Part shown: in pieces, positions 36,122-64,000 of the stretch
Layout: each line of letters starts with the position of its first letter
How positions within the stretch are numbered: the stretch's first letter is position 1
NCBI RefSeq assembly: GCF_022179465.1
Contig: NZ_BPQV01000007.1
Location: 186,001-250,000, forward strand
DNA length: 64,000 nucleotides
Source: Methylobacterium organophilum
GTDB lineage: Bacteria > Pseudomonadota > Alphaproteobacteria > Rhizobiales > Beijerinckiaceae
Reading direction: 5' to 3'
Program-made: the position numbers and the translations under genes
The notes under the pieces: model-generated
Told to the model about the DNA's origin: nothing
Seen by the model: only the letters and a program-made list of their open reading frames with translations
The model's database searches: none

Positions 36122-36319
36122 CGTGCCCCGCGGTAGGGCTCGGGTTGGCAAAGATCAGAAACAGATAAGCATGCCGCCCGTCTTGGCGACTCGTTTACCA
36201 ATCCAAAGAAGGTCTCGGATCGACGCTGCTCCGCCGGAGCCTTGAGCGTATTCGCTCGCATTTCCTAAAGGATCTCCGGCGAAATTCCAACGAACTGCAC
36301 GCGTCGAGAACCGCCTTCC

Positions 36320-39300
36320 ATGAACATGCGTCCCGATCTCGCCTGCCGGAGCATTCTCCGGGGCCGGAAGGATCCGTCGCTCCTGCGTGACGAGTTGCTG
36401 CCGGAGATCGTCTCGGATTCGGCGCGGGCACGCCCGGAGCACATCGCCATCGTGTTCGGCGGGACCCGGATCACCTACGCGGAGCTGGAGGCCCGGGCGG
36501 ACCGGGTCGCGCGGGCCCTGCGGGCAAGGGGCGCCGGGCCGGGCCGGTTCGTGGGCCTGTGGATGACCCGCTCCCTCGACCTGCATGTCGCCCTGCTCGG
36601 CATCCTCAAGAGCGGCGCCGCCTACATCCCCTTCGACGCCGACGCGCCGCCGGATAGGATCGGCGAGTGCCTCACGGATTGCGCGGCCGATCTCCTGATC
36701 GTCGACTCCGTGACCGCGGCGAAGCTCGAACGGGCGCCGGCGGCGACGCCCCTCCCCTTCGCGGCCCTGATAGACGAGGGCGGCGCGGGCGCACCGATCG
36801 ACCTGCGGGCGCTCGGCCTCACCAACGCTCACCCGGCCTATGCGATCTACACCTCGGGCTCGACGGGCAAGCCCAAAGGCATCGTCATCAGCCACGCCAA
36901 TATCTGTCACTACCTGCGCGCGGCGAACCAAGTCTACGGCATGACCGGGGACGACGTATGCTTCCAAGGCGCGTCGGTCGCCTTCGATCTCTCCCTCGAA
37001 GAGATCTTCGTCCCCTATCTCGTCGGCGCCACCCTGTGGGTGGCCTCGCCCGCGATCCTCGGCGAGGTCGACGCGCTGCCCGGCGTGATGCGGGCGGCCG
37101 GGATCACCGTCCTCGACACGGTCCCGACGCTGCTGGCGATGATGCCGGAGGACGTGCCCTCGCTGCGCATCATCATCCTGGGCGGCGAGGCCTGCCCGCC
37201 CGCCGTGCGGCAGCGCTGGTGCCGGCCCGGCCGCACCGTGTTCAACAGCTACGGCCCGACCGAGGCGACCGTGGTCGCCACCGTCGATATCGTCACCCCG
37301 GACGCCCCGGTGACGATCGGCGGGCCGATCCCGAACTACACCTGCTACATCGTCACCGAGCAAGGAATTCTGGCCGGCCCGGGCGAGGAAGGCGAGCTCC
37401 TGATCGGCGGCCCGGGCCTGGCCGGCGGCTATCTCGGGCGGCCGGATCTGACGGCCGAGAAATTCATCGCCAACCCCTTCGACCCGGAGGGGGCTGACCC
37501 GGTGCTGTATCGCTCCGGCGACGCCGTGAGCGTCGATCCGGGCGGAAAGATCCTGTTCCACGGCCGCATCGACGATCAAGTCAAGCTGCGCGGCTTCCGC
37601 ATCGAGCTCGGCGAGATCGAGGCCCGGCTCTCCACCACCCCGGGCATCGCCCAGGCGGCGGTGGTGGTGCGCCCGGACAACGGCATCGACCGGCTCGTCG
37701 CCTTCGTGGTGCCGGAGGCGGGCCGGTCCCTCGACCGCGCTGCCCTGCGGGCGGCGCTCAAGGCGCAGCTGCCGCCCTATATGGTGCCGGCCCATTTCGA
37801 GGAGATGGCCGTCCTGCCGCGGCTGACCTCGGGCAAGGCCGACCGCAAGGCCCTGAAGGCGATGGTCCTCCAGGCCGCGGACGAGGCCGAGGTTCAGGAG
37901 GCGCCGCAGACCGCCACCGAGGCCGCCCTGCTCGCGGCGGCCCAGCCACTCTTCCCGGGGCAGGTCCTGGCCTTCGAGGCGGATTTCTTCAACGATCTCG
38001 GCGGCCATTCGCTGCTGGCCGCGCGCTTCCTCGCCGCCGTGCGCGAGACCTCGCGCCTCGCGAGCCTGACCCTGGAGGATGTCTACGGCCAGCGCAGCCT
38101 GCGGGCCATGGCCGCCGCCCTCGACACGCGGATCTCCGACGCGCCGGACGCCGGCCCGGTCGACCTCTCTTTCGAGCCGCCGCCGCGCATGCGGCGCCTC
38201 CTGTGCGGCCTCGCCCAAGCCGCCTGCCTGCCGCTGCTGCTGCTCGGACGCACAGGGCCGTGGCTGACGATCTTCGTGGTCTACGAGCTGATCACGACCG
38301 ACGAGGTCATCCGCTTCCACGAAGTGCTGATGCTTCTGGGCACCTATGCCCTCGTGACCTTCGCCGTCACCGTAGCCGGCATCCTCGGCAAGCGCGCCGT
38401 GCTCTGGCGGGCCAAGCCCGGCCGCTACCCGCTCTGGGGCGTCTATTTCTTTCGCTGGTGGCTCGCCAAGCAGTTCGTCGGCCTGACCCATCTCTCGCTG
38501 ATGCAGGGCACGCCGCTCGCCGCCGCGACCATGCGGGCGCTCGGCGCCCGCGTCGGTCGCCGCAGCATCGTCAGCGGCCTCAATGCCGGGGCGATCGACC
38601 TCCTCACCATCGGCGACGACGTGACCCTCGGCGCCAAGCTCAGCGTCGCCAATGCCGAGGTCGTCGGCAACGAGCTGGTCATCGGCCCGGTGGAGATCCA
38701 GTCCGCCGCCTATATCGGCACCTCCTGCGCCATCGGCCACGGGGTGATCATCGAGGAAGGCGCGGAGCTCGGCGACCTCACCGCCATCCTGCCGGGCACC
38801 CGCGTCGGCGCCTTCGAGCATTGGGATGGCTCCCCCGGCCGCCGGGTCGGCGCGGTGGACCCCGCCACATGGCCCGCGCCGGCGCCTGAGCCCACACGGG
38901 CGATGCAGGCCGCCCGGACCGCGTTCTTCGCGCTGATGGTCCTGTTCATGCCGGCCATGGCGCTGCTCCCGGTCTTCCCGGCCTTCTACCTGTTCGACCG
39001 CTACGACACCGTGCTCCAGGCGCTCGTGGGTCTCGACTACCACTGGTACCTGCCGGTCCTAACCTGGCCGACCGCGATGCTCCTCGTCTTCGGAACGGCG
39101 ATGCTCGTCACCGCCATCCGCTGGATCGTCCTGCCCCGCGCGGGAGAGGGTACCCACTCGATCCATTCAGGCTTCTACCTGCGCAAGTGGACGGTGGGCC
39201 TGGCCAGCGACGTGATGCTCGACACGCTGAGCTCGCTCTTCTCCACGGTCTACATGCGCCATTGGTACCGGCTGATGGGCGCCCGGATCGGGCGGGACAC

Positions 39301-40327
39301 CGAGGTCGCCACCAACTTCGCCGGCCGCTACGACACGATCGAGATCGGCGACCATTGCTTCGTGGCCGACGAGGTCGTGGTGGGCGACGAGGACATCCGA
39401 CGCGGCTGGATGACGATCCGCAAGGTGCGCACCGGCTCCCGGGTCTTCATCGGCAACGACGCGGTGCTGCCGCCGGGCACGGACATTCCCGACGGCTGCC
39501 TGATCGGCATCAAGTCGAAGCCTCCGGCCGGAAGCGCCATCGAACCGGGCGACACCTGGTTCGGCAGCCCGCCCCTCCGCCTGCCTGTGCGCCAGCGCTT
39601 CGACGATGCGCAGACCGCGATGACCTTCCGGCCCTCCGCCGGGCGCCGGCTGCTGCGGGCCGTGTTCGAGCTGTTCAGCGCCTCGATGCCGACGATGATG
39701 TTCATCACCCTCGGCACCTACGCCGCGGAATACGTGCTGTTCCCGGCCCTGGAGCACCAGAGCTGGGGCATGTTCCTGGCAATCTTCGTGGCAACCTGCA
39801 CGGCCTGCGCGCTGATCCTGGCCGGCGTGGTGCTCGTGCTGAAATGGATCATGATGGGCGTGTACCGGCCCGGCAATCACGGCCTGTGGTCGTGGTGGGC
39901 CCTGCGTACCGAGGCCATGACCACGCTCTACTGGGGCACGGCCGGCGCCATCCTGCTCGACAGCCTCCGCGGCACGGTCCTGCTGCCCCCGGCCCTGCGC
40001 CTGTTCGGCGTAAAGATCGGCCACGGCGTGTTCCTCGACAGCACCGACATCACCGAGTTCGACTGCGTGCGGATCGGCGACCATGCCGCCATCAACGCCA
40101 CGGCCAACCTGCAGACCCACCTGTTCGAAGACCGGGTGATGAAGATCGGCCCGATCGAGATCGGGCGAGGCGTCAGCGTCGGCGCCCTAACCACGGTGCT
40201 CTACGACACCCGCGTCGGCGGCCACGCCCGGCTCGGACCGCTCACCATCATAATGAAGGGCGAGGCGATTCCGGCCAACACCCAATGGGCCGGCGCCCCG
40301 GCGCGGCCGATGCAGGCGGCGGCGTGA
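36320..40327 (+). CDS. Pls/PosA-type single-module peptide synthetase with three membrane/beta-helix modules
   Basis: The 1335-residue protein reads as follows. An adenylation domain (about 30-525) has YTSGSTGKPKG at 177-187, FDLSLEEIF, NSYGPTEA, YRSGD and catalytic Lys K506. A carrier domain has phosphopantetheine Ser S564 in DLGGHSLLAARF. Then come three repeats of membrane helices (about 628-690, 867-937, 1123-1180) each followed by a left-handed beta-helix hexapeptide segment (about 743-835, 986-1075, 1229-1330). This is the layout of epsilon-poly-L-lysine synthetase (Pls) and PosA-type poly-ornithine synthetases, where the tandem C-terminal domains join monomers through side-chain amide bonds. 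No condensation or thioesterase domain of ordinary NRPS is present. The pocket residues read DLEDIGSVVK, suggesting a basic amino acid. The downstream permease overlaps it by four bases. Confidence 0.87.
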   Translation: MNMRPDLACRSILRGRKDPSLLRDELLPEIVSDSARARPEHIAIVFGGTRITYAELEARADRVARALRARGAGPGRFVGLWMTRSLDLHVALLGILKSGAAYIPFDADAPPDRIGECLTDCAADLLIVDSVTAAKLERAPAATPLPFAALIDEGGAGAPIDLRALGLTNAHPAYAIYTSGSTGKPKGIVISHANICHYLRAANQVYGMTGDDVCFQGASVAFDLSLEEIFVPYLVGATLWVASPAILGEVDALPGVMRAAGITVLDTVPTLLAMMPEDVPSLRIIILGGEACPPAVRQRWCRPGRTVFNSYGPTEATVVATVDIVTPDAPVTIGGPIPNYTCYIVTEQGILAGPGEEGELLIGGPGLAGGYLGRPDLTAEKFIANPFDPEGADPVLYRSGDAVSVDPGGKILFHGRIDDQVKLRGFRIELGEIEARLSTTPGIAQAAVVVRPDNGIDRLVAFVVPEAGRSLDRAALRAALKAQLPPYMVPAHFEEMAVLPRLTSGKADRKALKAMVLQAADEAEVQEAPQTATEAALLAAAQPLFPGQVLAFEADFFNDLGGHSLLAARFLAAVRETSRLASLTLEDVYGQRSLRAMAAALDTRISDAPDAGPVDLSFEPPPRMRRLLCGLAQAACLPLLLLGRTGPWLTIFVVYELITTDEVIRFHEVLMLLGTYALVTFAVTVAGILGKRAVLWRAKPGRYPLWGVYFFRWWLAKQFVGLTHLSLMQGTPLAAATMRALGARVGRRSIVSGLNAGAIDLLTIGDDVTLGAKLSVANAEVVGNELVIGPVEIQSAAYIGTSCAIGHGVIIEEGAELGDLTAILPGTRVGAFEHWDGSPGRRVGAVDPATWPAPAPEPTRAMQAARTAFFALMVLFMPAMALLPVFPAFYLFDRYDTVLQALVGLDYHWYLPVLTWPTAMLLVFGTAMLVTAIRWIVLPRAGEGTHSIHSGFYLRKWTVGLASDVMLDTLSSLFSTVYMRHWYRLMGARIGRDTEVATNFAGRYDTIEIGDHCFVADEVVVGDEDIRRGWMTIRKVRTGSRVFIGNDAVLPPGTDIPDGCLIGIKSKPPAGSAIEPGDTWFGSPPLRLPVRQRFDDAQTAMTFRPSAGRRLLRAVFELFSASMPTMMFITLGTYAAEYVLFPALEHQSWGMFLAIFVATCTACALILAGVVLVLKWIMMGVYRPGNHGLWSWWALRTEAMTTLYWGTAGAILLDSLRGTVLLPPALRLFGVKIGHGVFLDSTDITEFDCVRIGDHAAINATANLQTHLFEDRVMKIGPIEIGRGVSVGALTTVLYDTRVGGHARLGPLTIIMKGEAIPANTQWAGAPARPMQAAA

Positions 40328-41826
40328 CCGCCCTCGCCCCGGCGGCGATCCTGCCCGGCGGAGACGAGGCGCAGGCCGCCACCTCCAAGGGCAACCCCGC
40401 CGCGGGGCCGCGGACGCTGTCGCGCCTCTCCCTCACCACCCTCGTCGTCGGCTCGATGGTCGGCGGCGGGATCTTCTCCCTGCCCCAGGCCTTCGGCCGT
40501 TCCACGGGCGTAATCGGCGCGCTCATCGCCTGGGGCATCGCCGGCCTCGGCATGCTGATGCTGGCCCGGGCGTTCCAGACCCTGGCCGAGCGCAAGCCGG
40601 ACCTGGATGCGGGCATCGTCGCCTATGCGCGGGCCGGGTTCGGCCCCTATCTCGGCTTCCTCTCGGCGCTCGGCTACTGGGCGAGCGCCTTCCTCGGCCT
40701 CGTCACCTTCCTGGTGCTGTCGCAATCGACCCTCGGCGCCTTCGTCCCGGCTTTGGGCGAGGGCGACACCCCCGCCGCGGTCGCCGTGGCCGGCCTGATC
40801 CTCTGGGGCGTGCATGCCCTGCTGCTGCGGGGCGTGAAGGAGGCGACCGCCCTCAACACGATCGTCACGGTGGCCAAGATCGTCCCGATCGTGGTGTTCC
40901 TCGCCGTGGTGGCGGTCGCGTTCCGGCCCGAGGTCTTCGCCGCGAATCTGATCGGCGCACCTGCACTCTCCGGCGGCGACCTGTTCGGGCAGGTTCGCGG
41001 CACACTGCTGATCGTGGTCTTCGTCTTCCTCGGCATCGAGGGGGCGAGCGTGTATTCGCGCTACGCGCGGCGCCGGGAGGACGTGGGACAGGCCACGCTC
41101 CTCGGCTTCGGGAGCGTGCTCGCCCTGTTCATGCTCGTCACCATCCTGTCCTACGGGATCCTGCCGCGGGCGGAGCTCGCCGCCCTGCGCAATCCGTCCA
41201 TGGCCGGTGTGCTGGAGGCCGTGATCGGGCGGCAGGGCGCCATCTTCGTCAGCCTGGGCGTGCTGATCTCGGTGCTCGGCGCCTACCTGTCCTGGTCGCT
41301 GCTGGCCGCGGAGGTTCTCTCGGCCTCGGCCGCGGGCGGGATCATGCCGGCCTTCCTCGGCCGCCAGAACGCCGCCGGCGCGCCCGCCGCCGCCCTCTGG
41401 CTCACCAACGGCGCGGTCTTCGCGGTCCTCCTGGCGACGCTCGCGGCGGAATCCGCCCTGCGCCTGGCGATCGAGCTCACCAGCGCCATGAGCCTGCTGC
41501 CCTACCTGCTGGTCGGGGCCTACGCCGTGAAGCTCGCCCGCACGGGTGAGGGCTATGCGGGCACAGGCGCGGCAGCCCGACGGGCCGATCTGATTGCGGC
41601 GGCGCTCGCCACCGGCTACGCCGCCGGTATGCTCTGCGCCGCCGGCCCGAAATACTGGCTCCTCTCGACCCTCATCTACGCGCCGGGGACGCTCCTCTTC
41701 CTGCAAGCCCGGCGCGAGCAGAGCGCGACGCCCTTCACGGCCGCGGAACGGTGTCTGGCTCTCCTCCTCGGCGCGGCGCTTCTCACGGCCGTCATAGGCC
41801 TGTGCAACGGCGCCATCCGTCTCTGA
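40324..41826 (+). CDS. APC-family basic amino-acid permease/antiporter
   Basis: The 500-residue carrier has 12 hydrophobic helices. The first helix holds LTTLVVGSMVGGGIFSLPQ, the motif of the ArcD-like arginine/ornithine and lysine antiporters, and IVVFVFLGIEGASVYSRYA is typical of this group. The GTG at 40324 overlaps the synthetase stop (GTGA), so translation is coupled. The permease probably imports the monomer for the synthetase or exchanges it; polymer export is less likely for an APC carrier. Basic amino acid specificity is inferred from family likeness. Confidence 0.85.
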   Translation: MTALAPAAILPGGDEAQAATSKGNPAAGPRTLSRLSLTTLVVGSMVGGGIFSLPQAFGRSTGVIGALIAWGIAGLGMLMLARAFQTLAERKPDLDAGIVAYARAGFGPYLGFLSALGYWASAFLGLVTFLVLSQSTLGAFVPALGEGDTPAAVAVAGLILWGVHALLLRGVKEATALNTIVTVAKIVPIVVFLAVVAVAFRPEVFAANLIGAPALSGGDLFGQVRGTLLIVVFVFLGIEGASVYSRYARRREDVGQATLLGFGSVLALFMLVTILSYGILPRAELAALRNPSMAGVLEAVIGRQGAIFVSLGVLISVLGAYLSWSLLAAEVLSASAAGGIMPAFLGRQNAAGAPAAALWLTNGAVFAVLLATLAAESALRLAIELTSAMSLLPYLLVGAYAVKLARTGEGYAGTGAAARRADLIAAALATGYAAGMLCAAGPKYWLLSTLIYAPGTLLFLQARREQSATPFTAAERCLALLLGAALLTAVIGLCNGAIRL

Positions 41827-41840
41827 CGCCGGCGGCCCCG

Positions 41841-43280
41841 ATGATCCCGCACATACCCCGCCTCGCTCCAGCCTGGTCTCCCCTCGCCCTGCTCGCCTGC
41901 CTCCTCGGCGGCACGCCGGTCCAGGCGCAGATCGCCGCCCCGATCGCCGACCTCCTCGACACCACCCAGCCGGAGACGAATCCCCGGATCGCCCAGCGCG
42001 GGGAGGATCCTGTCCGCACCGGCCCGCTCGCGGCTTGGGCCACGGACCTCGCCGCCCACGGCCTGAGCTTCGACGTCAACGCCTACGACTTCTATTCCGC
42101 CAACCCCACCCTCGGCCTGCGCCCAGGCCAGCAGGCGAATGCCGCCTATCTCGTGCTGAGCATGAGCGCGGACCTGCAGCGGCTCGCCGGAATCGAGGGG
42201 GGCACGCTCAACTTCACACAAAGCTTCTTCGGGTTCGTGCGCAACCTCAACATAGCCAACGCCATCGGCGACAGCACGTCGGGCTTCCTGGCGCCCTACA
42301 ATCCGAATGCGAGCCGCCTCTCCCTGCTGACCTACCAGCAGCGCCTCCTCGACGACCGGCTGGTCCTGGAGATCGGACGGACACATCCCGACCGCTACTA
42401 TGTGCTGCCCCCCTGCGGGACGGTCAATTCCTGCTACCAGGATCTGCTCGTGCTCAATGCGGGCTGGACCTCGAGCCTCTACGGGGTCTGGGGCGGCAAC
42501 GCCGCCTATCAGCTCTCGCCGAGCACCTATGTCCAGGCCGGCGCCTTCAGCGTGAACCCCAACACCAACTGGCTCAACGGATACGAATGGGGCTCCGAGT
42601 GGATCGCGGGCGCCGTCGTCATGACCGAGATGGGGCTGAAGACGGATTACGCCGTCGATCCCTATCCCCGGCGGTTCTCCCTGACCGGCTTCGTGAACAC
42701 CGCCGACCACGACGACAGTGTCCGGACGGTCGCGGGCTTCATGAAGAATTTCTGGCCCGGCACGCCGACGCCGCAGAAATCCGGCACCTCCGGCCTCGTC
42801 CTGACGGCGAGCCGGACGATCTGGCGTGCCGACGGGGGCCGGGAGGCGGGAGACCTCCATCCCACGGCTCTCACCCTCTACGCGAGCGCCGGCTACGCCT
42901 TCGACGCGACGATCCCGGTGCGCTTCAACGGCTTCGTCGGCCTGCTGCTCGCGGGCCCCGACCGCAGCCGGCCCGAGGACACCTACGGCATCAAGTTCAA
43001 CTGGCAGCGCCTGAACGACAGCTACGCGATCTTCCTGGGGGACACCAACTTCTTCGCGGACGGCACGGGGCAACCCTACCCCCGCAACAAGTTCGTGATC
43101 GAGGCCAACGCCCATTTCGAGCTGGGCCAGGGCGTCGCCGTCGAACCCGTGCTTCAATACGTCGTCAACGCGAACTCGTTCTACGAGCCCTACACGGCCC
43201 GCCGGGCACGGGACGGCGTCTATCTCGGCGCTTCCCTCGTCGTTCCCATCGGGACGATGCTCGGCCTCGCCGCCGAATAG
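41841..43280 (+). CDS. OprB-type carbohydrate-selective porin family protein
   Basis: The 479-residue precursor has a signal peptide (LALLACLLGGTPVQA-QIA) and a beta-barrel with the OprB features LNFTQSFFGFVRN, EWGSEWIAG and LEIGRTHPDRYYVLPPC. Two Cys (PPC ... SC) may form a surface disulfide. OprB porins usually pass sugars, but in this operon it may pass the polymer or its precursor across the outer membrane. It starts 14 bases after the permease stop and appears to be the last gene of the operon. Confidence 0.85.
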   Translation: MIPHIPRLAPAWSPLALLACLLGGTPVQAQIAAPIADLLDTTQPETNPRIAQRGEDPVRTGPLAAWATDLAAHGLSFDVNAYDFYSANPTLGLRPGQQANAAYLVLSMSADLQRLAGIEGGTLNFTQSFFGFVRNLNIANAIGDSTSGFLAPYNPNASRLSLLTYQQRLLDDRLVLEIGRTHPDRYYVLPPCGTVNSCYQDLLVLNAGWTSSLYGVWGGNAAYQLSPSTYVQAGAFSVNPNTNWLNGYEWGSEWIAGAVVMTEMGLKTDYAVDPYPRRFSLTGFVNTADHDDSVRTVAGFMKNFWPGTPTPQKSGTSGLVLTASRTIWRADGGREAGDLHPTALTLYASAGYAFDATIPVRFNGFVGLLLAGPDRSRPEDTYGIKFNWQRLNDSYAIFLGDTNFFADGTGQPYPRNKFVIEANAHFELGQGVAVEPVLQYVVNANSFYEPYTARRARDGVYLGASLVVPIGTMLGLAAE

Positions 43281-43447: not shown

Positions 43448-43493
43448 TGGCTGGGGGACGTGGATTCGAACCACGACTAACGGAGTCAGAGTC
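43448..43493 (-). tRNA. tRNA-Gln(CUG) 3' fragment, probable attachment site
   Basis: On the minus strand, the sequence runs from the anticodon loop (CTCTGAC, anticodon CTG) through the TCCGT stem strand, variable loop, T arm (GTGGTTCGAATCCAC) and acceptor strand to an encoded CCA at 43448. The 5' half (acceptor 5' strand, D arm and the first anticodon stem strand) is missing. This is what remains at one junction when an element integrates in the 3' end of a tRNA gene. It cannot make a tRNA. Confidence 0.8.
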
Positions 43494-54267: not shown

Positions 54268-57200
54268 TCACCAGGCGGCCTGGAGGCCTGCGGAGAAGAC
54301 CTGCGCGGTGGCGCCGGAGCGCAGATCGCCCGTATAACCCAGCCTCAGCTGCACGCCCTCCGCGACTGCACCCGTCAGGCTCACCCCCAGGACCGCGCCG
54401 TCCCGGCCAAGCGCGCTCGTCCGGCTCGCGAAGGCCGCCCCGAACAGTCCCGAGCGCACGACCGCGTAGGTGTCGGCGAGCTCGTGCGCCCAGTACGCCC
54501 GGCCCTCCAGGCGCAGGTCCGCAACGCCCGCGAAAGCCACGCTCGTCACGCGTCCGCCCACGAGGCTGCGCGCCGCATCGAGATCCGCCAGCGCGAAGCC
54601 CTGGCTGGCCAGGCCACCCCGCTCGGCCACCCGGCCTCGCGTCAGGCGATCGTAGCTGAAGCCCACCTCCGGCACGACCTCGACCGGCAGACCCGCCGCC
54701 AGCACGTATCCGGCAAAGCCCGCGACCCCGCCGCTCCAGCCCGAGGCCAAGCCGCTCGTCGGCGATACCGCCGAGCCCAGCGCCACCGTCCGGTCGATCC
54801 GCCCGTCCGCGTACGACACCCCCGCCGTGCCGCGCAGCACCACTGCGCCCAGGCGGGTGCTCGCGTAGAGGGTGCCGCCGTAGCTGTCGCTGGCGAACCG
54901 GCCCAGCCCCGCGCCCCGCGAGGTGCCGTCCTCGCGCAGGTAGCTGAACGCCCCGCCCACCTGCGTATCCGCCCCGACCTGCCGGTCGAGGCCGAGCAGC
55001 AGGCCGCCCGCATCGAACCCGGCGCCCGAGGCGGCCCGGTCGCCGGCCCGCGTGCCGAACCCGTACAGCGCGTCCGCCCAGACCCGGCCCTCGCCCACTG
55101 CCAGCGGCTGATCGGCAGCCCCGGCGCCGCCGCGCACCTGCAGCGTCGCGCGGTTCGGGCCCAGGCCCAGATCGCCCGCGCTGAACGCCGTCGCACCCCC
55201 GCCCAGCCCGCGCTGGTGCCGGTCGATCGTGTCGGCGATCAGCCGGCGCGCGGCGAGGTCGGTCATCACCGCATCGCCGTAGCTCTGGCCCGACAGGCTC
55301 GCCAGGCCGCCCGCCAGGGTCGCCGGGTCCGCCGCGTAGAGCGGGTCGAACACCCGCGCCCGCATCGCGTCCGGCCGCGTCCCGGCGGCCGGGCGGGCGT
55401 TATCGAGGGCGGCGCCCACCGCCTGGGCATTGCCCGACTGGGAGAGGCCTAGGCCGGCGAGGTTGCCGTAGGCGGCCGGTGTCACCACGAGGTCGAGGCT
55501 GGTGGCCGCGTAGAGCGCGTCGAAGCGCGTGCCGGCGGGCAAGCCCGCCGTCGGCTGGGCCAGCCCGGTGAACGAGCCCGACAGTCCCGCCTGGGCGGCG
55601 AGCACGCCGAAGCGCTGGCCGAGCGCCGGGGTGAAGCTGTTGGTGGCGTTGCCGGTGATGCCGCGCAGGACCGGCACCAGGGTGCCGTTGGCCGCGACCG
55701 TGCCGGTGGTGCCGAGCGCCAGGAGGCGGGCGTAGCTACCCGCGCCGGTGCCGGTGCCCGGGCCGTCGATGTCGAGGCCGAAGCTGCTGCCGGGGGCGAA
55801 GGCGACCGGGCCGAGCACGGTGAGGGTGCCGGGGGAGTTGCCCGGCCGCAGGGCGCCGGCGACCGTGACGGGCGCCGCGATGGTGCCGATGCCGCGCAGC
55901 GTGCCGGGGGCCGCGACGGTGACCGGCGAGGTCCAGACGCCGTTGAGCGAGAGCGTGCCGGCCTGGATCGTGGTCGGGCCGGAGAAGCGACCGGTGCCGT
56001 TGAGCGAGAGCGTTCCGGTGCCGGCCTTGATCAGGCTGGTGGGGCTGGTGCTCTCCAGGATGGCGCCGGCGTAAGCCGAGGAGGCCGCGCCCGTGACCGT
56101 GAGGGCGCCGTTGCCCAGGACGGCGGAGGCGGAGCCTTCGAGGCTTGCCACGGTGAGGGCGCCGCCGCCGAGGTCCAGGGCGCCGGTATTGGTCAGCGTG
56201 GTGAGACCGGCGAGCGGGCCGGTGATCTGGAGCAGGCCGGCATTGGTCAGCGTACCGTTGAATTGGCCGGAGAGGCGGGCGATGCCGGTATTGGTCAGGT
56301 CGGTGGTGAGGGTGCCCTCGCTGGCGACGAGCCCGGCATTGCTGAGGCCGGCGGCTGCGGTGAGGCTGGCGGTCCGGGCGACCGTGACGAGGCCGGCATT
56401 GGTGAGTGGGCCGGCGAGGCTGTAGCTGCCGGTGACGGCGAGTGTCGCGCCGGCGGCGTTGGCCAGGGTGCCGTTGCTGGCGACTGGGCCGGAAACGGCG
56501 AGCAGGCCGGCATTGTTGGCGATCGCCCCGTCGATGCGGCCGGCGCTGGCAAGCACGGTGCCGGCATTGGTCAGGCCACCGTTGATCGTGCCGCTGGTGG
56601 AAAGCGTGCCGGCATTGGTTGCACCGCCTGCGATGGCGCCCGCGTTGACGAAGCTCGCCCCTTGATGGACCGTCACCGGTGATACGAGGCTCCCCTCCGC
56701 CGTCAGTTCCAGCGTCCCGGCCTCGATGGAGGCGCCGCCCGTGACGGTGTTGGCCGCCGATAGGACAACGGAGCCAGGCCCGGTCTTGACGAGGACGCCC
56801 GGCCGGCTGCCGTCGGCGATCGGACCTGCGAAGGTGGCGGTGCCGAGATCGATCTGGAGGGTGCCGGGGCCGCTCAGCGTGAGCGGGCGAGCGGTGGTGA
56901 AGCCGTCGGCCAGGACCTCGAGGGTGCCGCCGCCGATGGCCAAGCCGGTGCCGGCGGCGCCGAGATTGACATCGCTTGAGATGGCCAGGGTGCCGCCGTA
57001 GACAGCGGTGCCGCCGGCATAGGTGTTGTGACCGGTGAGTTCGAGGGTGCCGAGGCCGGTCTTGATCAGGCCGCCGACGCCCGAGATGTCGTTGGAAAAG
57101 GTGCCCGACCAGCCTTTGGTATCGGTTTCGAAGTCGGCGACGAACTGCGCTGGGCCGCGCACCGCCTTGCCGAGATTGAGCAGGCCCCATCCATAGATGT

Positions 57201-58212
57201 CATCGACGCCGGGCGCTCCGAGGTCGGTCGCGGTGGTCAACAGCGTCTGCTGCAGTTCGTACGCCGAGAACCAGGGAAAGGCCTGCTTCAGCACCGCCGC
57301 GGCTCCCGTCACCACCGGCGCCGCCATGGAGGTGCCTTCATCGAGGCCGTAGCGCATCTGGGTGGGAGAGCTACGCAGGCTCGGCAGTGTCGAGTAGATG
57401 CCGACGCCCGGCGCCACCAGGCACCAGTCCCGGGCGACGCCGCAGCGATTGCTGAAGTCGGCGATGACGTTGTTGGCGTCGACCGCTCCGACCGCGAGCC
57501 AGTTGTCCTTCAATTCCGGAAAGAGATGCGGCAGGGCCGGTAAAGGGTCGGGATTCGGCAGAGCGGCGTTGCCGTTCGCCACTACCATCAGGATGCCGGC
57601 CTCGGCGAGGCCACGCGCGCCCTCTAGGACCTTGGGAAACTGCGTCACCACCTCGTTGCGCGTCACGTTCGTGACGTCTGGAGCGAGCGGCGATGGCTCG
57701 CCGCCGATTCTGTAACTCGCATTGATGACGGAGACGCCCTGCGAAGCGAGAAAAGGCCACGGCGTCGAGGCATAGAGATCGAGCCCGCCGAATGCCCCGA
57801 GCTTCGCAGGCACGATCTGCGCCTCGAAGGCGACGCCGTGCATGCCCTTGCCGTCGCGCGCGGCAGCCGCGATGCCGGTGACGTGGGTGCCATGCGGCGT
57901 GACGTCGGAGTTGGTCCCCGGCTCCAGCGTTCGGTTGGTGAGGAAATTATAGCCCGGCAGCACCCGCCCGAGGAATTCGCTGTGGCGTGAATCGAGGCCG
58001 GTGTCGGCGATGCCGATCAATACGCCCTTGCCGGTGAAGCCCAGCGCGTAGGCTTCGGCGGCATTGACCTGCGCCAGTGCATGGGAGGCGAAATATTCCG
58101 GCGTCTCGAAACTCGCCGCGGTCTGCGCCATGGCGGTGCCGGCCGACAAAAGCAAAGCCGCCAGCGAGGTCGTCGACGCCACGGCGAGGCGGAGGGAAAT
58201 GGGGCTGTGCAC
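54268..58212 (-). CDS. Autotransporter with S8 subtilisin-like protease passenger
   Basis: A 1314-residue surface protein. A signal peptide (about 1-29) is followed by a subtilase domain (about 40-355) with Asp in GIADTGLDSRHSEF, His in PHGTHVTGIAAA and Ser in DEGTSMAAPVVTGAAAV. Next come autotransporter-associated repeats (LIKTGLGTLELTGHNTYAGG and two further copies) interrupted by a long Ala/Gly/Asn-rich section with recurring TNAG units (about 520-700). The C-terminal about 270 residues form the beta-barrel, ending GLQAAW. It would cleave proteins at the cell surface or release its passenger. GTG is the apparent start. It lies in the accessory island. Confidence 0.92.
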   Translation of the reverse strand: MHSPISLRLAVASTTSLAALLLSAGTAMAQTAASFETPEYFASHALAQVNAAEAYALGFTGKGVLIGIADTGLDSRHSEFLGRVLPGYNFLTNRTLEPGTNSDVTPHGTHVTGIAAAARDGKGMHGVAFEAQIVPAKLGAFGGLDLYASTPWPFLASQGVSVINASYRIGGEPSPLAPDVTNVTRNEVVTQFPKVLEGARGLAEAGILMVVANGNAALPNPDPLPALPHLFPELKDNWLAVGAVDANNVIADFSNRCGVARDWCLVAPGVGIYSTLPSLRSSPTQMRYGLDEGTSMAAPVVTGAAAVLKQAFPWFSAYELQQTLLTTATDLGAPGVDDIYGWGLLNLGKAVRGPAQFVADFETDTKGWSGTFSNDISGVGGLIKTGLGTLELTGHNTYAGGTAVYGGTLAISSDVNLGAAGTGLAIGGGTLEVLADGFTTARPLTLSGPGTLQIDLGTATFAGPIADGSRPGVLVKTGPGSVVLSAANTVTGGASIEAGTLELTAEGSLVSPVTVHQGASFVNAGAIAGGATNAGTLSTSGTINGGLTNAGTVLASAGRIDGAIANNAGLLAVSGPVASNGTLANAAGATLAVTGSYSLAGPLTNAGLVTVARTASLTAAAGLSNAGLVASEGTLTTDLTNTGIARLSGQFNGTLTNAGLLQITGPLAGLTTLTNTGALDLGGGALTVASLEGSASAVLGNGALTVTGAASSAYAGAILESTSPTSLIKAGTGTLSLNGTGRFSGPTTIQAGTLSLNGVWTSPVTVAAPGTLRGIGTIAAPVTVAGALRPGNSPGTLTVLGPVAFAPGSSFGLDIDGPGTGTGAGSYARLLALGTTGTVAANGTLVPVLRGITGNATNSFTPALGQRFGVLAAQAGLSGSFTGLAQPTAGLPAGTRFDALYAATSLDLVVTPAAYGNLAGLGLSQSGNAQAVGAALDNARPAAGTRPDAMRARVFDPLYAADPATLAGGLASLSGQSYGDAVMTDLAARRLIADTIDRHQRGLGGGATAFSAGDLGLGPNRATLQVRGGAGAADQPLAVGEGRVWADALYGFGTRAGDRAASGAGFDAGGLLLGLDRQVGADTQVGGAFSYLREDGTSRGAGLGRFASDSYGGTLYASTRLGAVVLRGTAGVSYADGRIDRTVALGSAVSPTSGLASGWSGGVAGFAGYVLAAGLPVEVVPEVGFSYDRLTRGRVAERGGLASQGFALADLDAARSLVGGRVTSVAFAGVADLRLEGRAYWAHELADTYAVVRSGLFGAAFASRTSALGRDGAVLGVSLTGAVAEGVQLRLGYTGDLRSGATAQVFSAGLQAAW

Positions 58213-61441: not shown

Positions 61442-61975
61442 TCAGCGGCCGTATGCGAGGATCTGGCCGGCGTCGAAGTTGCCCGAGGTGGTCGGGGTGA
61501 ACCGGATCGCCACGATCGGCGCCGCCACCGTGAGCAGACGCGGATTTTCCAGGGCCGAGACGAGCCCGGGTTCGGAGATGTTCCCGGTGACCATGCCGCA
61601 GCGCAGGACCGGGCGACGCTGACCGTTTCCGGAGAGCAGGGCCTGGCCGTTGAGCTGGCCCGCCGCCGAGATCGAGGGGGTGAAGGCGACCGCCGCGCTG
61701 AAATTCGTGCCGTCCGTCGAGATCGCCGCGCTGAAGGTCTGGCCCGACGTGGAGTAGTCGTGGGAGATGTTGATCCACGAGAAAGACAGGTCGGTGTATG
61801 CGCCGAGCCCCGTGAAGGTGACCGAGGCCGCAGGCGTCGTGCCGAGATCGCCGGAATTCCCGATCTGGGTGTAGGCGATCGGCCCGAAGCCGGCCTGCTT
61901 GAGCGCGTAGGCGGTGACGATCTTGCGCGGATCGAGGCCGGCCAGGAGCTCGGCTGCGGAGGCGAACTTGCTCAC
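61442..61975 (-). CDS. Phage structural protein, function unknown
   Basis: A 177-residue protein rich in Ser, Thr, Gly and Ala with beta-sandwich-like strands (TFTGLGAYTDLSFSWINISH and FTPTTSGNFDAGQILAYGR). It is probably a tail or tail-fibre accessory protein from its place between the tail fibre and the lysis genes. No family is recognised. Confidence 0.6.
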   Translation of the reverse strand: MSKFASAAELLAGLDPRKIVTAYALKQAGFGPIAYTQIGNSGDLGTTPAASVTFTGLGAYTDLSFSWINISHDYSTSGQTFSAAISTDGTNFSAAVAFTPSISAAGQLNGQALLSGNGQRRPVLRCGMVTGNISEPGLVSALENPRLLTVAAPIVAIRFTPTTSGNFDAGQILAYGR

Positions 61976-61982
61976 GACTCAC

Positions 61983-62774
61983 TCAGCCCTGGATCGCGTA
62001 GCGATAGGCGCCCGACGCCGGCGCGGAGGCGAAGCTGAAGGTGACGGTGTTCGTGTCGGTGGCGACCCAGTCGGCCATGACCTCTTCGTCGGTCGCGTTG
62101 AGGCGCAGTGACACCAGCACGTCCTTGCTGCCGAGGTTATGCGCCACGGCAATGTTGGTGGCCGACCCGTTTCCGAGGTTGCCGGCGACCTTGCGCGAGA
62201 CGACGGCGGTGTCGATCGAGAAGCCCGCCGAGCCGACGGCGAGACCGCCGCCTGGGGCCGCCACCCCGGTGAAATTCGAGCCGGACAGCTGGACGCCGTT
62301 GCTCGCCGTGTAGCTGGCGCCCCCACCAAGGGTCCCCCAGGTGGTCGCCGTGGTCCCGATGGTCACCGCGGCGTCCGAGATGACGAGATAGACCTTGTCG
62401 GCGTTGACGCTGCCTTCGGTGACGGTGACCGCGGTGCCCGGGTTGAGCTCGGTGCCGGTGTCGGCGTCGAGCGCGCGGGTCAGTGCCGCGGCCGCGCCCG
62501 TCCAGACGTAGAGGCCGTTCTCGGCGCCGCTCGACTGGTTTTTCAGGAGCACGCGGTCGTTGGCGGCCAGCGTGACACCATCGAGCGTCGCGCCGGGCGA
62601 CGAGAGGGTGACGTTGCCCGTCGAGGCCGCGCGCACCGGCTGCTTCCAGGACAGGCCGCGCGCGACGTTGTCGACATACTGCTTGTTGGCCGCATCCGTG
62701 TTCGCGGCTGGGTCGCCGAGGTTCTGGATGCGCTGGTTCTGGAGGTCGAGGCCGTTCGAGACCTTTTTCGGCAT
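61983..62774 (-). CDS. Phage tail-fibre-like protein
   Basis: The 263-residue protein starts with NGLDLQNQRIQNLGDPAANT and AANKQYVDNVARG, the pattern common at the base of tail fibres. It then shows short Gly/Ser/Thr-rich repeats. A host-recognition or baseplate role is likely. It starts nine bases after the upstream gene. Confidence 0.8.
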   Translation of the reverse strand: MPKKVSNGLDLQNQRIQNLGDPAANTDAANKQYVDNVARGLSWKQPVRAASTGNVTLSSPGATLDGVTLAANDRVLLKNQSSGAENGLYVWTGAAAALTRALDADTGTELNPGTAVTVTEGSVNADKVYLVISDAAVTIGTTATTWGTLGGGASYTASNGVQLSGSNFTGVAAPGGGLAVGSAGFSIDTAVVSRKVAGNLGNGSATNIAVAHNLGSKDVLVSLRLNATDEEVMADWVATDTNTVTFSFASAPASGAYRYAIQG

Positions 62775-62783
62775 GGCGGATCC

Positions 62784-63398
62784 TCAGGCGAGCACGACGG
62801 AGCCGGCGGTGGGCACGGCGAAGACGATGGTGACGGTGGTGGCGGTCGCGACGACGTCGGCGAGCATCTCGGCGCCGGACGTGTCGTAGACGGTGACGAT
62901 CGGGCGCCGGCCGAGCCCATGGGGGATGATCCAGGTGCCGGCCGGCGTGACCTGGGCCCGCTCGGTCGCCCCGGACCCGCCTGGCGAAGGGGCGCCCCCA
63001 CCGGACCCGCCATTCTGGGGTGGTTGCACCGCTGCTGGGGCATCCTCGACCCAGATGCGGCCCTGTGCCCAGGTCTGCCGGTGTCCGCCGTGAAGGCAGC
63101 GCAGGGCATAGCGCCCCAGGCCGCCTGCCGGCAGGCTTAGGCTCTGGCCGGTGCTGTAGCTCCACGTCACCGTCCCGCCCGCCACATCGACGGCGAGCGC
63201 GGCGGGCGAGGCGGCAACGATCTGGCCCGCCTCGACCTGAGAGAGGTCGGCACGCAGGAGCGCCGGCCACCAGATCGTCAGCTCGAACTCCGCGCTGGCC
63301 GGGATCTCGGAGGCGCCAGCGGTGCCGAAGCGCCAGACGAGCGGAGGCGTGTCGTCGCCGCGCACGAGGCGCTGCTCGACATAGGCAGAACCGGACAT
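62784..63398 (-). CDS. Phage protein with Ig-like or tail domain
   Basis: The 204-residue protein has an N-terminal beta-rich domain (EFELTIWWPALLRADLSQVE), a Gly/Pro/Ser-rich hinge and a C-terminal domain with WIIPHGLGRRPIVTVYDTSG. The C-terminal motif IPHxLGxxP recurs, altered, in the tail-fibre-like gene downstream (VAHNLGSKDV). Likely a tail component. Confidence 0.6.
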   Translation of the reverse strand: MSGSAYVEQRLVRGDDTPPLVWRFGTAGASEIPASAEFELTIWWPALLRADLSQVEAGQIVAASPAALAVDVAGGTVTWSYSTGQSLSLPAGGLGRYALRCLHGGHRQTWAQGRIWVEDAPAAVQPPQNGGSGGGAPSPGGSGATERAQVTPAGTWIIPHGLGRRPIVTVYDTSGAEMLADVVATATTVTIVFAVPTAGSVVLA

Positions 63399-63528
63399 GG
63401 CAACCCGTCGGAATGATGAAGCGAGACGGCCGTTCCGCTCGGGCCGCGCGTCAGCGCTGCGGGATGAAGCTCATCACGGCGACTTCTGACGAGCTACGGG
63501 GAGGCCACCCCGGTAAAGCGAACGAGGA

Positions 63529-64000
63529 TCACGGGACGAACTTGAGCGCGTTCGACGACGTGTCCCGGTAGACCGCTCCACTGGGCAGCCCGCTCGGCGA
63601 GGTCGGGAAATTCTGGACACTCATGCCGTAGGTGACCAGCCGTCCATCGGTGTCGAGGACGAGGCTGTTGCGGCCCTGGCGGCTGTCGTACAGGGCGAAC
63701 TGCCCCCCGGTGAGCGAGAATTTCCCGAACTGCGTGTTGTCCTGGACATCGTCCAGGCGAACGCCCGGGTCGGCTCCTGTCGTCCGCACGCCGCCGTCGA
63801 ACAGCAGGGGACCGCCCTTGCCCAGCGTCCGGGCGGGCACGTTGGACCAGCCGTTCGCCGTCGTCGGGTTGCCGCCGCCGAAAAGCGTGTCGTCGACCCG
63901 CACCGTGGCGGAGGAGTTCGGGTCGAACTCGATGGCGAATTTCGAGGTTTGGCCCGAACCCGATGCGGTCTTGTAGCCCGCATTGAACCGGAAATTGCCG
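63529..64000 (-). CDS. Phage tail-fibre/collar protein, N-terminus beyond the window
   Basis: The frame is open at the right edge (minus strand) and ends at 63529, giving 156 residues of the C-terminal end. It contains NFRFNAGYKTASGSGQTSKF at the edge, repeated Gly/Asp motifs and a closing SPSGLPSGAVYRDTSSNALK typical of tail-fibre ends. Similar endings are common to phage structural proteins. Confidence 0.75.
   Translation of the reverse strand, partial: GNFRFNAGYKTASGSGQTSKFAIEFDPNSSATVRVDDTLFGGGNPTTANGWSNVPARTLGKGGPLLFDGGVRTTGADPGVRLDDVQDNTQFGKFSLTGGQFALYDSRQGRNSLVLDTDGRLVTYGMSVQNFPTSPSGLPSGAVYRDTSSNALKFVP

Follow-up and report, generated by a model that had tools for sequence, protein, structure and literature searches.

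How could a cationic polymer assembled by a membrane-bound enzyme leave a Gram-negative cell? This question is raised by three adjoining genes of Methylobacterium organophilum, encoding a Pls/PosA-family synthetase, a basic amino acid/polyamine antiporter and an OprB-type porin. They lie in a 64,000-nucleotide stretch of contig NZ_BPQV01000007.1 (assembly GCF_022179465.1, positions 186,001 to 250,000), referred to as the window, and coordinates are positions in the window unless a locus or contig is named with them. The genome holding the window (G000) comprises 5.06 Mb in 113 contigs. Comparison with related loci revealed that the conserved unit consists of the synthetase and the porin, with the antiporter as an optional third gene. 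The synthetase family and the clusters widespread in the genus are known already; new here is an accessory clade of synthetases that is linked to a porin. The features of the locus are:

36320-40327, plus strand: Pls/PosA-family synthetase of 1335 amino acids with an ATG start (TIGR02353, Pfam domains, repeats and motifs)
36986-37837, plus strand: the ten pocket-code codons of the synthetase A domain (alignment to PosA 8g95/8g97 and family alignment)
40324-41826, plus strand: basic amino acid/polyamine antiporter of the APC superfamily with a GTG start (TIGR00905, PF13520)
41841-43280, plus strand: OprB-type (carbohydrate-selective) porin with an ATG at 41841 (PF04966)

A preliminary description of the window had recognized these three genes, the way they adjoin, the domain plan of the synthetase and the class of each product, all of which held up in the analyses given below. 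The antiporter GTG (40324-40326) overlaps the synthetase TGA (40325-40327), and the antiporter stop ends at 41826, which leaves a gap of 14 bases before the first base of the porin at 41841.

Synthetase architecture and pocket code

Residues 633-1328 of the synthetase match TIGR02353, 'Pls/PosA family non-ribosomal peptide synthetase', at 533.5 bits against a curated cut-off of 423.1, and by this profile match the enzyme is a member of the known family. The Pfam scan identified AMP-binding, AMP-binding_C, a PP-binding carrier and hexapeptide-type (left-handed beta-helix) repeats, and neither a condensation nor a thioesterase family was matched. The A domain spans approximately residues 33-506 and is followed by the carrier, whose GGHS motif (561-564) contains serine 564, and by a membrane-bound terminal domain (633-1328) made up of three repeats. 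When 32 aligned sequences were cut into three over the terminal domain and the resulting profiles were compared by hhalign, probabilities of 99.95, 100.0 and 99.7 were obtained, placing three homologous repeats in the C-terminal 723 amino acids. Family-averaged hydropathy revealed six hydrophobic stretches arranged as three pairs (625-697, 862-942 and 1114-1182), and the hexapeptide matches point to beta-helix parts within the terminal domain. Two ACPS-family phosphopantetheinyl transferases are present in the genome. As far as the two are described in PMC10522769, the same arrangement of A domain, carrier and membrane repeats is found in Streptomyces Pls, which makes epsilon-poly-L-lysine, and in PosA, the delta-poly-L-ornithine synthetase of Acinetobacter baumannii, with which the window enzyme also shares TIGR02353 and an Asp and a Glu in the binding pocket. 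The A domain scores higher against that of PosA (8g95/8g96; 359.7 bits) than against the epsilon-PL synthase A domain of Streptomyces (7wew; 259.1 bits).

The pocket code of the synthetase reads DLEDIGSVVK (D223, L224, E227, D266, I286, G288, S310, V318, V319 and K506). As controls of the mapping, the PosA code DMEHNGTVSK was recovered exactly in four genomes of the phylum (L157, L158, L159 and L162), and one further genome gave DSECYGGVTK, the code published for Bdellovibrionales. D223 and E227 align with D217 and E221 of PosA, the acidic pair that it uses for the alpha-amine and the side-chain amine, and code positions 1 and 3 thus keep the acidic pocket residues for both amino groups. This is consistent with the reading of a cationic side chain and with activation of a basic amino acid. 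The PosA code as a whole is not matched: Met is replaced by Leu at position 2, His by Asp at position 4 and Asn by Ile at position 5, while PosA's Thr and Ser at positions 7 and 9 give way to Ser and Val. Lysine enzymes differ from the window enzyme as well, carrying Ala in place of Leu at position 2 (PMC10522769, in part).

The window code was found in 35 of the 113 rows of the family alignment, with duplicates counted and two rows lacking most of the region. Enzymes with a DLE(D/S) code form a single clade of 54 rows in a synthetase tree of 77, which was built by a quick method, has several long branches and contains rows picked from the family-alignment extraction, with duplicates, fragments and most core-paralogue rows omitted. 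The nearest neighbors outside this clade (L079 and L075) carry the PosA-like code DMEHNGTVTK, and enzymes bearing PosA's own code are approximately 42% identical to the window enzyme. The synthetase of Rhizobium sp. CCGE531 (L069, 7768-12437), with the code DLEDIGTVVK, is 48% identical, and there the next gene downstream, beginning 8 bases past the synthetase, encodes a phosphopantetheinyl transferase in place of the antiporter and porin. Ornithine would be the favored monomer, perhaps as probable as all other candidates combined, because the Asp and Glu are kept, the nearest neighbors have a PosA-like code and no diaminobutyrate aminotransferase over the cut-off was found in the genome (best score 141.6, cut-off 401.6). 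Diaminobutyrate, an idea that arose from the Leu at code position 2, is disfavored since the genome lacks a dat gene over this cut-off, although import could still supply it.

Co-inheritance of the porin with an accessory clade

Using the C-terminal DNA of the window synthetase as a query, a relative was found in 111 of 112 genus genomes; the one genome without a match is 70% complete. M. organophilum encodes a second Pls/PosA synthetase (G000:C5:16967-20947; L002, L118), which is 58% identical to the first; neither the porin nor the antiporter has a close relative beside this second gene. This genus-wide Methylobacterium enzyme belongs to the same family as the window enzyme, carries the code DLEDLGTVVK and falls into a separate clade of its own; its presence in nearly every genome points to a role in housekeeping more than to one as an antibiotic enzyme. 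Excerpts of two published studies report non-alpha poly-amino acid clusters, detected by antiSMASH, in almost all Methylobacterium and Methylorubrum genomes studied (PMC8561711) and one apiece in two M. extorquens strains (PMC10353431). These published clusters presumably correspond to the 58% copy.

The window copy is, judged by sequence, a member of a rare accessory clade. DNA matches of at least 81% identity to its C-terminal stretch occur in 7 of the 112 genus genomes, one of which (G251) lacks the middle of the gene. In this degraded copy (L155, G251:C55, 11718-12875) an internal deletion joins residues 1-62 to 1001-1330. A second degraded copy, in M. zatmanii (L017, 10001-13585), is truncated at its 3' end and would probably be missed by the C-terminal query. 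No porin was found beside either degraded synthetase in the downstream sequence examined (3.7 kb for L017, more than 10 kb for G251). The sister group of the accessory clade is not the core paralogue; it consists of Bosea, Pseudoroseomonas and related loci, including L031, a metagenome-assembled genome labelled Methylobacterium sp. whose synthetase is 73% identical and groups with Bosea.

The porin matches PF04966 (OprB) over residues 100-463 at 133.6 bits (cut-off 22.9) and has an apparent signal peptide, judged by eye; Porin B (4gey/4gf4) provides its only solved relatives by sequence. It is encoded directly downstream, after the antiporter where there is one, in all six intact members of the accessory clade that were found, namely the window, Methylorubrum populi (L035), L009, L010, L011 and M. 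tarhaniae (L027). With starts as we assign them, an in-frame porin start overlaps the stop codon of the gene before it in four members, this gene being the synthetase in L009, L011 and L027 and the antiporter in L035. Since the antiporter is absent from four of the six intact operons and the porin is kept, the porin tracks the synthetase rather than the antiporter. The preliminary description had read the three genes as a unit, which should then be conserved in relatives. For the porin this proved correct among the close orthologues, and for the permease, present in two of the six, it did not; a three-gene unit conserved as a whole was rejected because a close antiporter relative (E <= 1e-60) is limited to 2 of the 112 genus genomes.

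Of the porin trees, from which the frame-split M. tarhaniae porin was omitted, the larger joined the five linked porins in one clade (support 100/100), set apart from 26 unlinked porins by a long stem of 0.49 changes per site. The linked porins branch in the same order as their synthetases. The smaller of the trees has 13 rows, and the larger covers 31 of the 53 matches listed, that is 30 fetched loci and L119. The ratio of nonsynonymous to synonymous substitution (dN/dS) is 0.30-0.36 for the porin, with a dN of 0.19-0.22 versus 0.10-0.12 for the synthetase. The complete three-gene order recurs collinearly in L035, at 81.5% DNA identity over window positions 36317-43246 (blastn), and that locus shares a single further match of 99 bases with the window. 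Between the two loci, dS is 0.45, 0.51 and 0.61 across the three genes and dN/dS is 0.23-0.32; synthetase, antiporter and porin are all under purifying selection. Because of the collinear recurrence in L035 and the selection acting on all three genes, the arrangement is taken to be beyond chance.

The antiporter scores 444.5 bits against TIGR00905 (basic amino acid/polyamine antiporters; cut-off 409.05), while TIGR03810 (arginine-ornithine antiporters) gives the best E-value yet stays under its cut-off (502.4 versus 591 bits). It also matches PF13520, and AdiC is its nearest solved structure by sequence. An antiporter between synthetase and porin was found only in the window and L035. Within the accessory clade of the synthetase tree, the window enzyme branches off first and L035 is nested, so that the antiporter would either be ancestral, with at least two losses, or have been gained twice. 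An ancestral antiporter that was lost at least twice is favored because the two genes share their position and 80% identity.

DNA similarity between most clade members stops at or near the ends of the operon genes, with differing flanks (blastn), as for a cassette transferred from site to site. The similarity goes beyond these ends downstream in the pairs L010/L011 and L011/L027 and upstream in L035/L017; the window also has a major facilitator superfamily transporter stretch in common with L017, and a few pieces of less than 300 bases match as well. Just 3' of the porin, the 44 bases at 43448-43491 are identical to the 3' end of a tRNA-Gln(CTG) gene (G000:C3:25306-25349). The GC content drops from approximately 0.72 in the interval 40-42 kb to 0.61-0.65 at 42-48 kb, resembling the border of an integrated element. 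Farther along, the minus strand encodes a subtilase autotransporter of 1314 amino acids with PATR repeats (54268-58212) and a run of consecutive open reading frames with coding-like composition (61442-63903), of which the one at 61983-62774 gave no Pfam match at E 0.001.

A putative export unit and its alternatives

We hypothesize, with slightly better than even confidence, that the operon makes a short cationic polymer and passes it out of the cell. The A domain would activate a diamino acid, most likely ornithine and less so 2,4-diaminobutyrate or lysine, which would be loaded onto the carrier at Ser564 and polymerized by the membrane-bound three-repeat domain into a short homopoly(amino acid) with isopeptide bonds. 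The antiporter, where present, may supply or balance the basic amino acid over the inner membrane, and the OprB-type porin may pass the polymer, or less likely the monomer, over the outer membrane. The hypothesis builds on the architecture, family, gene order, porin co-inheritance and purifying selection observed here; it presumes co-transcription, the substrate, the polymer and the direction and cargo of both transporters, with polymer passage through the porin as the best reading. For Streptomyces Pls this last step does not arise, its host being Gram-positive and having no outer membrane to cross.

A number of observations weigh against this hypothesis. Among 111 synthetase loci from outside the clade, none showed a porin, and antiporter-like genes lie near only one of them (L079, two genes on the opposite strand); the co-occurrence of permease and porin across genomes, which the preliminary description had suggested checking, did not extend to these loci. 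At least 3 kb of downstream sequence was available for 74 of these loci, 1.4-3 kb for 29 and less than 1.4 kb for 8; some genomes are represented twice, and the required synthetase match of more than 300 bits excluded a few loci (e.g. L081 and L082). L031 has no porin within 10 kb downstream of its synthetase, and two Azospirillum records and one Rhizobium record have synthetase neighbors of other kinds. In the published account, as far as drawn on here, posA of A. baumannii is a single-gene operon with no obvious co-transcribed partner. Taken together with the 111 loci, this argues that a porin is not generally needed. Within the clade, the antiporter is mostly missing, the L010 porin starts 43 bases past the synthetase stop without overlap, and the M. 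tarhaniae porin is split over two frames in the draft, reflecting either a draft error or decay. A promoter and terminator scan of the operon gave no signal above shuffles. Net charge was considered as a sign of polycation passage and dropped, as five linked (-4 to -8) and the unlinked porins (-3 to -7) differ little in a crude estimate that removed the first 40 residues only from longer rows; the two pieces of the split porin have charges of 0 and -2. Further, Patel and Gulick list DLEDIGTV[T/V/I]K (Methylobacterium, Rhizobia, Archaea and others), which is nearly identical to the window code, as a unique signature whose type they leave unassigned (PMC10522769, in part). Searches of the open-licence PubMed Central literature yielded no measured product, substrate or transport for any DLE(D/S)-code enzyme. 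The same literature yielded no report of an outer-membrane or porin partner for such synthetases, in agreement with the preliminary description, and how Gram-negative cells release such polymers is not addressed in what was found there.

An alternative that we consider unlikely is that a cationic polymer is made and leaves the cell elsewhere, the porin and antiporter forming an uptake path for basic amino acids. The basic amino-acid class of the antiporter would fit such a path, as would the OprB name, which refers to sugar uptake. The genome also encodes a paralogous OprB-like porin (L119, 5864-11717, G000:C3; 57% identity), with genes for a luciferase-like monooxygenase and a branched-chain-type ABC transporter behind it. 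Because transporter genes follow it, this sister protein resembles a porin for uptake, which counts against export as well. Against the uptake path stand the four intact operons in which the porin stays and the antiporter is lacking.

Somewhat more doubtful is a role in which the enzyme transfers diamino acids to a lipid or polysaccharide acceptor of the envelope, making the surface more cationic, with the porin as an envelope partner and no free polymer. Relatives in 111 of the 112 genus genomes look more like housekeeping than antibiotic genes, and for enzymes with a DLE(D/S) code the searches of open-licence literature gave no product, both of which would agree with such a role. However, Pls and PosA, which have the same architecture, make free polymers according to the portion of PMC10522769 used here, and the recognizable functional parts are kept in the window enzyme. 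Least probable is that a nutrient porin unrelated to the synthetase travelled with it by chance on one mobile cassette: differing flanks in most members compared and the higher dN of the porin would fit, but the porin overlaps the preceding gene in four genomes, has a low dN/dS, is kept in every intact member despite loss or gain of the intervening gene and is absent beside the broken synthetases.

Returning to polymer passage through the porin, the adjoining porin gene suggests a possible route of such polymers out of a Gram-negative cell. Tentatively, and with more doubt than confidence, it may represent the first putative outer-membrane exit dedicated to a cationic isopeptide polymer, a nutrient-porin offshoot specialized to one accessory synthetase with a new DLED monomer specificity. 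The unassigned pocket code, common to a large alphaproteobacterial clade, also hints that the polymer itself may be new. Natural variants, with or without the antiporter and with broken copies lacking the porin, occur in methylotrophs, several of them cultured, which makes the export question directly testable.

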